This document shows, in pieces, positions 1 through 22,627 of a stretch of DNA of 26,868 nucleotides. The position numbers and the translations under genes were made by a program. How positions within the stretch are numbered: position 1 is the stretch's first letter; each line of letters begins with the position of its first letter. Below the pieces are notes generated by a model. The model was not told where the DNA came from and made no database searches. It was given only the letters and a program-made list of their open reading frames with translations. Source of the DNA: a virus. Location of the stretch: positions 1 through 26,868 of IMG/VR virus record IMGVR_UViG_3300045996_000283; one strand, written 5' to 3'.

Positions 1-40
1 CTCATCCGTAGAAAATTTCCCCCTTTGAAGGAATTTGTTA

Positions 41-517
41 ATGGCTTTAACAGGCAAAAAGCTGGCCTTCGGCAAGGCGCTTTGGGCCGGAAAGTCAAAC
101 AAAGAGGCCGCTGTCATAGCGGGATACAGCGAAAAGACGGCATCTGCGTCGGGGTCGCGACTGGCCAAGGACGAGGATGTTAAAGCGTACTTGGTCGAGA
201 TGCGGCGCCGGGCTGATGCGCGTGCGCCAAAAGCGGCGTCGACTCGACTGGCGAAAGCGGCCGGACCCGGCCCGGATATGCCGGATGACGATCTGCTGGA
301 AAGCGACGATGACCCGCGCGAGTTTCTTCGGAAGGCCATGAAAAACGGCGCCCTGGAGCCGCGTCAGCGGATCGACGCCGCTAAGGCGCTGCTGCCCTAC
401 GAGCATCCGAAGCTGGGGGAAGGCGGAAAGAAGGAGCAGAAGCTGGACGCCGCCAAGGCGGTAGCGAAAGGTCGATTCGGTGCCAGGGCCGCGCCAAAGC
501 TGGTGCATAGCAAATGA
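41..517 (+). CDS. Terminase small subunit
   Basis: Probable DNA-recognition subunit of the packaging motor, 158 aa. The N-terminal half (about residues 1-55) reads as a helix-turn-helix of the Terminase_2 kind: a run with KEAAVIAGYS followed by a stretch like KTASASGSRLAKDEDVKAYL, the usual 'new variety, new site, next helix' pattern of TerS proteins. The rest is Lys/Ala-rich and acidic in the middle (DDDLLESDDDP). I chose ATG 41 because AAGGA lies about 8 bases upstream; an in-frame TTG at 35 has no better site. Its stop overlaps the start of the large subunit by four bases (ATGA). Position directly before terL is the strongest support; the family call rests on the HTH-like region only. Confidence 0.8.
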   Translation: MALTGKKLAFGKALWAGKSNKEAAVIAGYSEKTASASGSRLAKDEDVKAYLVEMRRRADARAPKAASTRLAKAAGPGPDMPDDDLLESDDDPREFLRKAMKNGALEPRQRIDAAKALLPYEHPKLGEGGKKEQKLDAAKAVAKGRFGARAAPKLVHSK

Positions 518-2181
518 CCGCCGCGCCAGAATGGACGACTGCTTGCCCTGATTGGGCCGAGCGGTTGAAGAGCGGCCGATCGATCATTCCGCCGCCGGTC
601 TTCCCTGAAGAGGCGGAGGCCGCGCTTGAGGTGCTGCGCGAGCTGCGAATTGTAGACGCGCCCGGATCGCCGACGATCGGCGAGGCCTGCGCGCCCTGGG
701 TGTTCGATCTGGCCGCCTCGATCTTCGGCGCCTATGACGCCGAGTCGGGTCGCCGCCTGATCACCGAATGGTTCGTGCTGATCCCGAAAAAGAATTCGAA
801 GTCGACCGTCGCCGCGGCGATCATGCTGACAGCGCTGATCCTGAATTGGCGGGAGTCGGCCGAGTTCACCATCTTGGCGCCGACGCTGGAGGTGGCGAAC
901 AACAGCTTCGCCCCGGCGCGCGACATGGTGCGCAAGGACGACGAGCTGGACGCGCTGCTGCAGGTGCAGACGCACGTAAAGACGATTACCCACCGGGAGA
1001 TGAACGGGACGCTCAAGGTGTCGGCGGCCGACTCCAATACGGTTTCGGGCAAGAAGTCTGTCGGAACGCTGATTGAGGAGCTCTGGCTGTTCGGCAAGCA
1101 GCCGCACGCGGAGAACATGCTTCGTGAGGCGACCGGTGGCCTGGCATCTCGCCCGGAGGGCTTCGTGATCTACATCACGACCCAGTCAGACGATCCGCCT
1201 GCCGGGGTGTTCAAGCAGAAGCTGCAGTACGCGCGTGACGTGCGGGACGGTGTGGTGGTCGACAAGCGCTTCGTGCCGATCATTTACGAGTACCCGAAGG
1301 AGATCATCGACGCAAAGCAGGACCGAAACCCGGCCAACTTTGGCATGGTCAACCCCAACATAGGGTATTCGGTCGACCGCGAGTTCCTTGAGCGCGAGAT
1401 GGCGAAGGCCCAGAACGACGGCGAGGCCTCCGTGCGCGGCTTCCTTGCCAAGCACCTGAATGTGGAAATCGGGCTGGCCCTCCGCTCCGACCGTTGGGCC
1501 GGCGCGGACTTCTGGGAACAAGCCGCACTGCCGGTGTTCAGCCTGGCCGAGTTGATCGATCGAAGCGAAGTCGTCGCCGCCGGCATCGACGGTGGTGGTC
1601 TGGACGACTTGCTCGGGCTTGCTGTCATTGGCCGCTGCGCGACGACACGCCGGTGGCTGACCTGGGGACATGCATGGGCGCATCCGTCCGTGCTTGAGCG
1701 CCGAAAGGAGATCGCCTCCCGCCTGCAAGACTTCGCCAACGATGGTGACCTGACGCTGGTTTCGCGGATTGGTGATGACGTCGCGGAGGTGGGCGAACTG
1801 GCGCAAATGCTGGAGGCATCCGGGAAGCTCGACAAGATTGGAGTTGACCCCAGTGGCCTGGGTCAGATTCTCGACGGGATGCTCGAAGCCGGCGTGCCGG
1901 AAGAGAAAATCGTCGGCATCTCGCAAGGCTGGAAGATGACCGGCGCTATCAAGACCGCCGAGCGGAAGCTGGCCGAGGGCGTGCTGGTACATGCCGGACA
2001 GCCGTTGATGGCCTGGTGCATCGGCAACGCGCGCGTCGAGCCAAAGGGCAACGCGGTAGTGATCACGAAGCAACAGTCCGGGTCAGCCAAGATCGACCCG
2101 TTGATGGCGATGCTGAATGCGGTATCGCTGATGGCGCTGAATCCAGCGTCTGAAGGCAAATCATTCTGGGACAACCCTTGA
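514..2181 (+). CDS. terL: Terminase large subunit (ATPase and nuclease)
   Basis: Motor ATPase and headful/cos nuclease that pumps DNA into the procapsid, 555 aa, a normal length for the Terminase_1 (HK97/phage) family. A Walker A-like P-loop PKKNSKST is at about residues 91-98 (the phage form lacking a classic GxxGK). A Walker B-like stretch TLIEELWLF is at about 185-193. The C-terminal RNase H-like nuclease begins near GIDGGGLDD with the first acidic residue at D359, and ends with a DPLMAMLNAV segment near residue 530. The start overlaps terS by ATGA and the stop overlaps the portal start by TTGA, so the three genes are translationally coupled. Confidence 0.95.
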   Translation: MTAAPEWTTACPDWAERLKSGRSIIPPPVFPEEAEAALEVLRELRIVDAPGSPTIGEACAPWVFDLAASIFGAYDAESGRRLITEWFVLIPKKNSKSTVAAAIMLTALILNWRESAEFTILAPTLEVANNSFAPARDMVRKDDELDALLQVQTHVKTITHREMNGTLKVSAADSNTVSGKKSVGTLIEELWLFGKQPHAENMLREATGGLASRPEGFVIYITTQSDDPPAGVFKQKLQYARDVRDGVVVDKRFVPIIYEYPKEIIDAKQDRNPANFGMVNPNIGYSVDREFLEREMAKAQNDGEASVRGFLAKHLNVEIGLALRSDRWAGADFWEQAALPVFSLAELIDRSEVVAAGIDGGGLDDLLGLAVIGRCATTRRWLTWGHAWAHPSVLERRKEIASRLQDFANDGDLTLVSRIGDDVAEVGELAQMLEASGKLDKIGVDPSGLGQILDGMLEAGVPEEKIVGISQGWKMTGAIKTAERKLAEGVLVHAGQPLMAWCIGNARVEPKGNAVVITKQQSGSAKIDPLMAMLNAVSLMALNPASEGKSFWDNP

Positions 2182-18717: not shown

Positions 18718-18923
18718 ACTTTATCGACGACGCGAAGCGGCAGTTCCCCAAGTTGTGGAGCGTCCGCTTTGCCCTTCTGGCCGCTGCAGCATCTGGTATC
18801 GAGACAGCCATGCACCTGTACGCCACCGGCACGGCGCCGCTGCTGGTTATCGCCGCCGGCCTGTCGTCGCTCGGCGCAGCAATCGCCCGGGTGATCGCCC
18901 AGCCATCGCTGGAGCAGCCATGA
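18714..18923 (+). CDS. Holin candidate
   Basis: 69 aa. The N-terminus FIDDAKRQFPKLWSVRFALLAAAASGIETA followed by PLLVIAAGLSSLGAAIARVIAQ is the layout of a small phage holin family in proteobacteria (W-S-V-R at the membrane entry, then two helices, then A-R-V-I-A-Q). AAGGAAAG precedes ATG 18714. It is coupled by ATGA at both ends to the upstream membrane protein and the lysozyme. It likely forms the membrane lesion that triggers lysis. Confidence 0.75.
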   Translation: MNFIDDAKRQFPKLWSVRFALLAAAASGIETAMHLYATGTAPLLVIAAGLSSLGAAIARVIAQPSLEQP

Positions 18924-19426
18924 GCCGGGCCCGCATCGCAGTGGGCAGCCTGGCACTGAGCGCCGCCGCGTTCGTCGGCCTGGTCACGCATGAGTCGTAC
19001 ACCGACCGCGCTGTGATCCCGACGAAGAACGATCGGCCCACCGTAGGGTTCGGATCGACCTTCGATGAGCAGGGGCGGCCCGTGAAGATGGGGGACACCA
19101 TCACGCCGGTTCGCGCGGTCCAGCGCGCCGCAGCGCACATCTCCAAGGAAGAGGCAGCATTCCGCGCTTCAATCCCGGGCGTGGCACTGCACCAGGTGGA
19201 GTACGACGTCTACATGGACTGGGTCTACCAATACGGTACCGGCGCCTGGCGCGCGTCCTCGATGCGCCGTGAGCTGCAGGCGGGCCGATACCGCGAAGCC
19301 TGCAGCTCGCTGCTGCTCTACAAGAAGTCCGGCGGATATGACTGCTCGGTTCCGGGCAATCGCATCTGTGCGGGCGTCTGGACCCGCCAGAAAGAACGCT
19401 TCTCCAAATGCATGGAGGCGCAATGA
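18920..19426 (+). CDS. Endolysin, GH24 lysozyme
   Basis: 168 aa, cleaves the glycan chains of peptidoglycan. The catalytic set is E25 (HESYTD), D38 and T41 (NDRPTVGFGST), the arrangement seen in BcepMu-like phage lysozymes, where the Asp-to-Thr distance is short. GDTITPVRAVQRA, WVYQYGTGAW and SLLLYKKSGG are family segments. Residues 3-23 form a weakly hydrophobic, Ala/Gly-rich segment without a typical cleavage site, suggesting a SAR-type (signal-arrest-release) endolysin; this is inference. Six Cys are absent; only three or four Cys are in the C-terminal part. Coupled by ATGA to both neighbours. Confidence 0.9.
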   Translation: MSRARIAVGSLALSAAAFVGLVTHESYTDRAVIPTKNDRPTVGFGSTFDEQGRPVKMGDTITPVRAVQRAAAHISKEEAAFRASIPGVALHQVEYDVYMDWVYQYGTGAWRASSMRRELQAGRYREACSSLLLYKKSGGYDCSVPGNRICAGVWTRQKERFSKCMEAQ

Positions 19427-20650: not shown

Positions 20651-20872
20651 GGAGGCTCCGAGTAAAACCGACGTTATAGCACGCATCGGCGCCCTGCAAA
20701 AACTGCGCTATTCGACAGAAGCGACTCCAATCAATACAGGCACTTAACGCAGCGGCCCGGCGGAACCAATAGCGCAGCTCGCGGTCTGCAAGCTACTGAT
20801 TCCAATCACGATATTGCTGAGCGGCGGTCTGACTTCTAAGCAGATGCTCCGATCTGGTGAAGCTGTCCGCGC

Positions 20873-20884
20873 GTTCCGCAATTC
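20873..20884 (+). repeat. Arm-type repeat, copy 1
   Basis: GTTCCGCAATTC, identical to the copy at 21097-21108. It lies about 110 bases left of the tRNA-derived core and is a candidate P-arm integrase site. Confidence 0.5.
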
Positions 20885-20984
20885 AATCCATCGCCCGCGT
20901 TTTCCCAGCGGAGCAGCGTCACTGGTCCGGCTGAATTGAGGAACGGTTTTGTAGAGCAAGTCCTTGATTTCGCTCAGTGTTCCT

Positions 20985-21034
20985 GTGGACTCATAATCCG
21001 TTGGTGCCCGGTTCGACTCCGGGGAGGCCTACCA
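20985..21034 (+). other. attP core: 3' half of a CAT-anticodon tRNA
   Basis: The sequence matches a tRNA from the anticodon stem to the 3' CCA: anticodon loop CTCATAA (anticodon CAT, 20992-20994), TGGTG variable loop, T-stem CCCGG/CCGGG with TTCGACT loop (21007-21023), 3' acceptor strand GAGGCCT, discriminator A and CCA (21032-21034). No matching D-arm is visible upstream. This is the segment a phage carries to rebuild a host tRNA-Met or tRNA-Ile2 on integration. The integrase gene lies next to the 3' side, as expected. Confidence 0.8.
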
Positions 21035-21091
21035 AATAAATCCCTGTAGATTCAAACGGTTAGCGCCGATTCTGCCGCGATTTTCCGAACT

Positions 21092-21113
21092 GCCGAGTTC
21101 CGCAATTCTCGGC
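21092..21113 (-). terminator. Hairpin downstream of integrase
   Basis: GCCGAG / CTCGGC with a ten-base loop, 20 bases past the integrase stop. No T-run follows on the minus strand, so termination is weak or the stem has another role. The loop contains one GTTCCGCAATTC repeat. Confidence 0.3.
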
Positions 21114-21124
21114 ATGTTCCGCAA
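21097..21124 (+). repeat. Arm-type repeats, copies 2 and 3
   Basis: GTTCCGCAATTC at 21097-21108 and GTTCCGCAA at 21116-21124, same orientation, 19 bases apart. They are candidate P'-arm sites between the core and the integrase gene. A degenerate TTTCCGAA is at 21082-21089. Confidence 0.5.
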
Positions 21125-21132
21125 AATCCCCG

Positions 21133-22242
21133 TTACCTGGTCGGCTTGACCAGCTTGCCCCGGCGGTGGCGCACGTACTTCAGGGTCATGCTTTGAGTCG
21201 CATGTCCGAGCTGATCCTGCGCGCCCTGCATGCCGGCAGCCTCTTCCTTGTCGGTACCGGCCTTCGCGCGAAGGTCGCGGATCTGATATTCCTTGATCGA
21301 CGCTGCCAAGTCAGGCCGCGCGGCTGCCGCCGCTTTTCTGGCGCGGTCGAAAGCCCGACGGACTTCGCCCTCACTGATCGGATAGCCGTCGTCGTTGTTG
21401 AGCAACATGAGGCTTTTCGACGGGCGCCTGGCAATGGCCGCCAGCAATTCAGCCAAGGCGCCTTCATTGGCCAGGCGCAGTCGCTTCCCAGTTTTGTTCT
21501 GCTCGACCGCGATCCATCCATCCTTGATGTCAGACTTCGTGATTTTCCTAACGTCGGCCGGTCGCTGACCTGTCAAATATGCGAGGTCCAGCACATCGCG
21601 CAAAGCCGGTTCGGCATGCTCCCAAACCACCTGGTAGACCTCGTCCTCGACGTACACATCCCGCCCGCTTTCGCTGTGTCCACGGATGCCGGCGCACGGA
21701 TTCGTCATCCGTGTCAGGCCTGCTTGGCGGGCGAAGTTCCAGATATGGGAGAACAGGGCCTTCTCACGATTCGCACGCACGTGCCCAAGGTCGGGCTTTA
21801 CCTCAAGCGGTGCCTTCTTTTCTTGGACCCGCTTGGCGTTCTTGAGCCGCGCCTGCTCGACCGCTTCCTTTACCCGCCATGCCAGGTACTGACCCACATG
21901 AACCGGCTCGATATCGTCGAGTGCGATCGGCGGGTCGTCGTAGAAGCGGTACAGCCAGGCCAGCTCGGCCAGATTGTCCTTCTGAGTCCGCGGCGCTTTC
22001 GTCGGCAATACTTCCTTCAGATAGCGCTCGGCAGCCATCCGGAAGGTAACCCTAGGCGCCGAATCCTCATCCTTTATTGTCAGCTCCGCCCATTTGCGAA
22101 CAGCTTCCACATAGTCCTGGCCCAGCGAGATCTCGCGCCGCGGCGATTCGCCTGTGTCGAGGTAGTAATACACCTTGTCCCGGCGGTAGCGCGCGCGCAT
22201 ACCGGTCGGGAGATTCTTATTCCTGGTTGGTTGACGGCCCAT
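21133..22242 (-). CDS. int: Tyrosine recombinase (integrase)
   Basis: 369 aa, catalyses integration and excision at the neighbouring att site. The N-terminal 40 residues (MGRQPTRNKNLPTGMRARYRRDKVYYYLDTG) are a lambda-Int-type arm-binding domain, about 65-180 the core-binding SAM-like domain, and 195-369 the catalytic domain. Catalytic residues visible: R227 (TGQRPADV), R325 in RDLRAK, H347 (QLGHATQ), Y356 (KYVRHRRG). The usual first His of the H-x-x-R box is Arg (R322), as in a known subgroup of these integrases. ATG 22242 shares a base with the stop of the DUF4224 gene (TAATG). It is the last gene of a long minus-strand operon. Confidence 0.95.
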   Translation of the reverse strand: MGRQPTRNKNLPTGMRARYRRDKVYYYLDTGESPRREISLGQDYVEAVRKWAELTIKDEDSAPRVTFRMAAERYLKEVLPTKAPRTQKDNLAELAWLYRFYDDPPIALDDIEPVHVGQYLAWRVKEAVEQARLKNAKRVQEKKAPLEVKPDLGHVRANREKALFSHIWNFARQAGLTRMTNPCAGIRGHSESGRDVYVEDEVYQVVWEHAEPALRDVLDLAYLTGQRPADVRKITKSDIKDGWIAVEQNKTGKRLRLANEGALAELLAAIARRPSKSLMLLNNDDGYPISEGEVRRAFDRARKAAAAARPDLAASIKEYQIRDLRAKAGTDKEEAAGMQGAQDQLGHATQSMTLKYVRHRRGKLVKPTR

Positions 22243-22463
22243 TACTTCCCACGCAATACGTTCGGTACCCAGCGCTTCTTCTCGGCCGGCGCCGCTGGTG
22301 TGTTCGCGCCCTTGTCGATCACCGAGCGGGTGACGACGGCCCGGCCGATCGCGTTCACAAAGAATGGGAGCCCCATCTTTCGCAGCGCCTCGATCTGTTT
22401 GGACTTGATTTTACGTCCCGTCAACTCGGCGATCTCATCGTCATTCAAGAACGTCGCACTCAT
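22242..22463 (-). CDS. DUF4224 protein
   Basis: 73 aa. The DUF4224 pattern fills the N-terminal half: FLNDDEIAELTGRKIKSKQIEALRKMGLPFFVNAIGRAVVTRSVI. Members commonly lie directly upstream of phage integrases; a DNA-binding or recombination-directionality role is often supposed but is not shown here. I chose ATG 22463, with GAGG about 6 bases upstream, over TTG 22484. It is coupled to the upstream 55-aa gene (ATGA) and the downstream integrase (TAATG), so the three are expressed together. Confidence 0.88.
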   Translation of the reverse strand: MSATFLNDDEIAELTGRKIKSKQIEALRKMGLPFFVNAIGRAVVTRSVIDKGANTPAAPAEKKRWVPNVLRGK

Positions 22464-22627
22464 TTCCGCCCTCTCTTTTCCCAATCCTTACAATACTGCG
22501 CTCCCTTGGTGCACTGTCCTGGCTGGCAGTCGCACCGCTGTTCCTTGCGCTTGAAGATGGCGTCGAAGCGATCGCCGAACTGCTCGCGCGGGACGGATAG
22601 CGGGCGTGGTGTGCTTCCTTTGCTCAT
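22460..22627 (-). CDS. Small Cys-rich protein
   Basis: 55 aa (MSKGSTPRPLSVPREQFGDRF... ending KDWEKRGRK). Four Cys in CDCQPGQCTKGAQYC could bind one metal ion. Basic overall. It is coupled by ATGA overlap at both ends, between the Dam-type methyltransferase and DUF4224 genes, which is the main support. Function unknown. Confidence 0.7.
   Translation of the reverse strand: MSKGSTPRPLSVPREQFGDRFDAIFKRKEQRCDCQPGQCTKGAQYCKDWEKRGRK

Follow-up and report, generated by a model that had tools for sequence, protein, structure and literature searches.

Integration of phage lambda offers the closest described comparison for the locus reported here. Lambda uses a heterobivalent tyrosine integrase with arm sites to either side of the attP core; IHF sites lie between the arms and the core, xis stands beside int, and the integrase gene is on the P′ side, with three sites in the P′ arm and an intergenic site as core (PMC4880445 and general knowledge). 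A second point of comparison is provided by Islander sub-site A elements, for which the crossover is at the anticodon loop and attP carries a 3′ tDNA fragment (PMC4383910). Its passages on target sub-sites give neither a common arm word nor a fixed arm geometry across different tRNA targets (PMC4383910).

The window analyzed here (the whole stretch of DNA, a 26,868-base virus record classed as linear) contains an attachment region with features of both systems. Genes for terminase, portal, protease, capsid, and endolysin lie to the left of it on the plus strand, and a tyrosine integrase and an excisionase are encoded to the right on the minus strand (Table 1); the gene annotation bears out an earlier sequence-only reading, which had placed a piece of tRNA between the late or lysis genes and the integrase. 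As in lambda, predicted arm sites flank the core on both sides, candidate IHF sites lie between arms and core, xis adjoins int, and the gene for the putatively heterobivalent integrase is on the P′ side. The arm word differs from that of lambda, however, the P′ arm has two sites rather than three, and the core lies in a tRNA anticodon loop, whereas that of lambda is intergenic (PMC4880445 and general knowledge). A presumed crossover at the anticodon loop and a 3′ tDNA fragment within attP are instead the likenesses to Islander sub-site A (PMC4383910). A DNA comparison of the int region with isolated phages recovered similarity only to methylase and lysis genes. We consider it very probable that positions 20873–21124 are a lambda-type attP, intact and probably functional, which belongs to a Massilia-group temperate tailed phage and is unsplit as packaged virion DNA.

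Table 1. Features of the window that bear on the putative attachment site
Feature	Coordinates	Strand	Basis or remark
Left contig end, cos-like motif CTCATCCGTAGAAAATTTCCCC	1..22	+	First base of YNCAYN6[AT]7 upstream of terminase genes; putative cos cut
Terminase small subunit (context)	35..517	+	phrog_641 E 5e-44
Terminase large subunit (context)	514..2181	+	phrog_9 E 6e-135, PF20441, PF03354
Endolysin (context), last recognized late-gene module left of attP	18905..19426	+	phrog_7, PF00959
Outer P-arm integrase site GTTCCGCAA (predicted)	20873..20881	+	Equivalent position in relatives
Inner P-arm site, degenerate GTTCCTCAA (predicted)	20936..20944	−	Opposite orientation to outer site, at a spacing of 62 bp
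IHF consensus site AATCAAGGACTTG, P side (predicted)	20957..20969	−	Sole exact WATCAANNNNTTR in window
attP core (CAT-anticodon tRNA, 3′ part, with one flanking base)	20987..21035	+	
IHF-like site, one mismatch, P′ side (predicted)	21050..21062	+	
First P′-arm integrase site (predicted)	21097..21105	+	105 bp from middle of anticodon loop
Second P′-arm integrase site (predicted)	21116..21124	+	19 bp from first
Tyrosine integrase, 369 aa	21133..22242	−	PF00589, phrog_1
Excisionase (DUF4224)	22242..22484	−	phrog_8896 E 3e-17, PF13986; adjoins integrase gene

Predicted arm and IHF sites, and recombination proteins

Exact copies of GTTCCGCAA occur three times in the window on either strand, all within 252 bp and at the positions that the sequence-only reading had reported (20873, 21097, and 21116); only 0.38 copies are expected in 26,868 bases, and three copies anywhere were reached in 1 of 100 shuffles. 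The same reading counted one arm copy on the left and two on the right. This overlooked a degenerate fourth copy on the minus strand, which has one mismatch and belongs to a 14-nt inverted repeat with the copy at 20873; the arms are therefore two plus two, not one plus two. Around the core, P consists of an inverted pair and P′ of a direct pair, with a single degenerate site among the four. The spacing of the P pair (62, against a typical value of 61), that of the P′ pair (19), and the distance from loop to P′ (105) together fit 40 sites.

Candidate IHF sites, identified by consensus only, are present between the core and each arm. The exact match separates the inner P site from the core; the site with a single mismatch is on the other side, where it separates the core from the P′ arm. 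In two relatives (L004 and L012), an exact IHF site is found on the P′ side of the core.

The window integrase contains a tyrosine recombinase catalytic domain (PF00589, E 7.5e-13), and its best sequence match in the PDB is lambda Int (E 1.7e-10). No Pfam arm-domain match was found in the window integrase. Structure prediction with AlphaFold2 from 19 relatives (mean pLDDT 85) gave a model whose top fold match is full-length lambda Int (E 5.8e-15, TM about 0.5) and in which, at a pTM of 0.53, an N-terminal domain of three strands plus a helix is present; this model, itself of moderate confidence, suggests that an N-terminal arm-binding domain is likely. Box II (residues 322–325 of the window integrase) is RDLR, instead of the usual HxxR, in nearly all family members in the alignment.

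We infer binding by integrase and IHF, bending, and recombination at the window attP, proceeding as follows. The N-terminal domain of the integrase would bind the inverted arm sites on P and the direct arm sites on P′, with IHF introducing a bend between the core and each arm, and strand exchange by the catalytic domain would take place in the anticodon loop of the tRNA gene in the host. After integration, the integrase end would have a complete tRNA gene made of the host 5′ half joined to the phage 3′ half, and the opposite end would have a tRNA 3′ fragment; the excisionase would help to reverse the reaction.

Host target and related attachment sites

The 49-base core is identical to CAT-anticodon tRNA gene DNA of Massilia sp. 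CFBP 13721. The sequence-only reading had located a tRNA 3′ part at 20985–21034; it is indeed present, with exact host identity over the slightly shifted interval given in Table 1. Within the core, the 48-mer running from GGACTCATAATCC to GGCCTACCA is unchanged in the Massilia genome, where it forms part of a 79-nt tRNA gene, and joining the host 5′ half to the phage 3′ half yields a complete tRNA according to ARAGORN. The ARAGORN label is Met, although the CAT anticodon alone cannot tell elongator Met from lysidine-modified Ile2. Searches of the window with ARAGORN and Rfam returned no complete tRNA, in keeping with the presence of a 3′ fragment alone.

A host tRNA gene with a matching 3′ end was looked for and found, both in Massilia sp. 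CFBP 13721 and more widely in its genus, where the 48-mer is present in 21 of 41 genomes; among 200 genomes sampled from the order it occurs in two, the Massilia genome itself and one congeneric genome. Host DNA directly flanking the tRNA segment was also looked for, and phage genes were found on both sides instead. The crossover presumably falls within the anticodon loop (CTCATAA, 20990–20996). These sequence matches suggest a Massilia-type bacterium as the likely host group and its CAT-anticodon tRNA gene as the likely integration site.

Two further occurrences of this core were observed. A separate small viral contig (L021, 5506–5553) has an identical 48-nt tRNA core with no TTCCGCAA arms nearby, and another integrase may therefore use an identical target. 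A genome from the Massilia genus group (G223:C1) contains two copies of the tRNA 48-mer on one strand, 11.4 kb apart (689623–689670 and 701039–701086), likely marking a small island in the same tRNA gene.

Integrase searches identified relatives in 13 viral contigs and five genomes. In one of these, IMG/VR contig 3300046513_000272 (G002), one end consists of a complete tRNA-Met and then the P′ arm, and the opposite end of the P arm and then a tRNA 3′ fragment, the two ends being about 38.7 kb apart; this is a phage integrated in a tRNA gene of the CAT-anticodon type. A near-identical phage, IMG/VR contig 3300046694_000162 (G001; integrase 98% identical), has a single unsplit core with all four arm sites. 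Both resemble the window in having the same kind of tRNA target and the same arms. However, only their int and xis genes match window genes (57% identity for the integrase and 43% for the excisionase), and the rest of the phage differs; integrase and excisionase therefore constitute a module common to otherwise different phages.

The isolated Pseudomonas phage F10 (NC_007805) has late genes, attP region, integrase, and excisionase in the same order as the window, and its integrase is 38% identical to that of the window. The F10 arms have the same four-site layout, with the P pair 62 apart, the P′ pair 21 apart, and one mismatch in some sites; its core, however, is unlike that of the window, as it does not correspond to a tRNA 3′ end by ARAGORN or by inspection. 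Relatives with the same four-site layout support the sequence-only reading of the repeats as lambda-type P and P′ arms. In two distant relatives, Mannheimia phage 3927AP1 (L262) and Pseudomonas phage PseuP_222 (L263), similar paired repeats are found beyond the integrase with other words (TTTCGGAA and GTTATGGAAC, respectively), as if the geometry had outlasted the arm word.

Left end and form of the DNA

The P arm, core fragment, and P′ arm are contiguous in the window. The sequence-only reading took this unsplit arrangement as a sign of a virion genome, an excised circle, or a tandem prophage. The idea that an unsplit attP is unusual was rejected, with 39 of 94 comparable sites intact among the matches listed; being unsplit is common in virus contigs and not surprising in itself. 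Among the proposed origins, the virion is favored by the left end of the window.

The window starts with CTCATCCGTAGAAAATTT, and 7 of 80 TerL relatives (L037, L039, L046, L050, L055, L082, and L088) start at exactly the same base of the motif. In most of the longer TerL relatives the cos-like motif is internal, upstream of the terminase genes, and records from sequenced P. aeruginosa lysates start in the same region, not all on one base. The right end of the window falls inside an open reading frame; with an expected genome of about 38–40 kb, judging from relatives and F10, the record is a fragment that reaches the left cos-like end only. From these comparisons the left end is best read as a putative cos end of packaged DNA. 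Its position on a base common to seven other contigs favors packaged virion DNA, and the window contig is most likely packaged linear virion DNA; the site would be unsplit by virtue of packaging, with the left cos end coinciding with the left end of the window.

An intact attP, working in the same way, would also be present in a tandem prophage, in a replicating concatemer, or in a circle formed by excision, and the contig G001 does look permuted, as it ends inside a gene and has 38,386 bases compared with about 38.7 kb for the G002 prophage. However, random breaks in circles or tandem copies would not be expected to yield a left base shared with seven independent contigs at a cos-like motif, and we consider such an origin of the window contig unlikely. 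With packaged virion DNA as the preferred reading, the contig represents unintegrated phage DNA for which a likely host group and integration site are identified, and the shared start base at a cos-like motif in eight independent contigs may serve as a way to recognize packaged DNA in metagenomes.

The integrase family and its attP geometry

In an integrase tree of 72 rows, built by a quick method and including some partial rows, the window integrase groups with CAT-tRNA integrases (five other rows from four contigs) with 95% SH-aLRT support. Among the labeled rows, the tRNA isotype must have changed at least 8 times, and the side occupied by the integrase gene at least 12 times. Several relatives (L006, L011, L015, L016, L120, L148, L159, L162, and others) have the integrase gene on the P side rather than the P′ side; at P-side integrase sites, the order of the arms relative to the tRNA is unchanged.

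It could be supposed that the tRNA piece in the window is a decayed remnant of another element's att site, unused by the neighboring integrase, given that a P site and an IHF site each deviate from consensus by one base, and that other elements use the same tRNA gene, as the core of L021 without arms indicates. Yet the order and spacing of the arms match the family, the window integrase groups with users of the same kind of tRNA, and the 49 bases are unchanged relative to host DNA, making a remnant highly improbable.

The arm word and the IHF consensus are both concentrated beyond the integrase genes of the family. Over the 330 bp that lie past these genes (4,397 bp in total), the arm 8-mer occurs 20 times, compared with 9 times in 157,140 bp of background (about 79-fold enrichment), and the exact IHF consensus occurs nine times compared with three (about 107-fold). 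Querying the viral collection with the pattern TTGCGGAA-N11-TTGCGGAA identified at least 119 loci, whereas a reversed control pattern identified 21. Under strict criteria, a tRNA 3′ half ends within 230 bp on the expected side at 66 of 119 loci among the matches listed, as against 0 of 21 reversed-pattern loci; the wrong side or the wrong strand accounted for 3 of 119. Relaxing the criterion and adding loci found by integrase brought the sites with a tRNA end among the matches listed to 94. Such counts are approximate, since the loci include duplicates of a single contig as well as close relatives, and tRNA identity was read by a simple parser. Most sites with a tRNA end have an integrase of the family nearby; the 25 listed pattern loci with neither tRNA nor integrase roughly equal the yield of the control pattern. 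The tRNA targets of pattern sites include Leu, Met, Lys, Cys, Asn, and Arg. Among the papers listed by a literature search with TTGCGGAA, all sequence matches were unrelated.

Nine-base repeats alone are weak evidence, with 12 occurrences of GTTCCGCAA at up to one mismatch in the window against 8.65 expected, but the recurrence of the same word past the integrase gene among relatives whose cores differ, together with the pair-pattern counts and their controls, makes it scarcely credible that the arm repeats are due to chance or serve some other role, for instance as sites for a repressor or for transcription.

The spacing of these elements is also regular. In the clustered set, the P′ arm mostly lies near 72–74, 82–86, 93–95, or 103–108 bp from the middle of the anticodon loop, a periodicity matched by 0 of 5,000 jittered data sets. 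The distance from CCA to the arm was dropped as a measure, as the anticodon-loop distance phases more sharply (best R of 0.76 versus 0.62 for clear loops). The P arm of the family is an inverted pair 60–63 or 51–54 bp apart, and its inner site lies at a near-constant distance from the anticodon loop. Four loci (L192, L212, L236, and L003) have a CCA-to-P′ gap of 86 or 138 bp, much longer than the others.

These comparisons suggest that about 90 further sequenced sites follow the rigid attP blueprint of the window despite many different tRNA targets. We favor, with some reservation, an evolutionary reading in which the integrase family has kept one arm word, TTGCGGAA, and a rigid attP geometry, while the part that binds the core has moved many times from one tRNA anticodon loop to another as its target, and the integrase gene has repeatedly switched sides. 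The geometry so maintained would comprise an inverted P pair at about 61 or 51 bp, an inner P site whose distance from the anticodon loop is nearly fixed, a direct P′ pair at 19 bp, and loop-to-P′ distances in helical-turn steps of about 73, 83, 94, and 105 bp.

The window attP is ordinary in kind, and the regularity of the family is the less ordinary result. If the retargeting reading is true, the 27-bp pattern would find attP and reveal the host target of uncultivated phages, so that a simple DNA pattern could lead to the att sites and hosts of metagenomic phages. A fixed arm code and quantized spacing combined with changing tRNA cores would likewise make the family a natural data set for studying target change by integrases.
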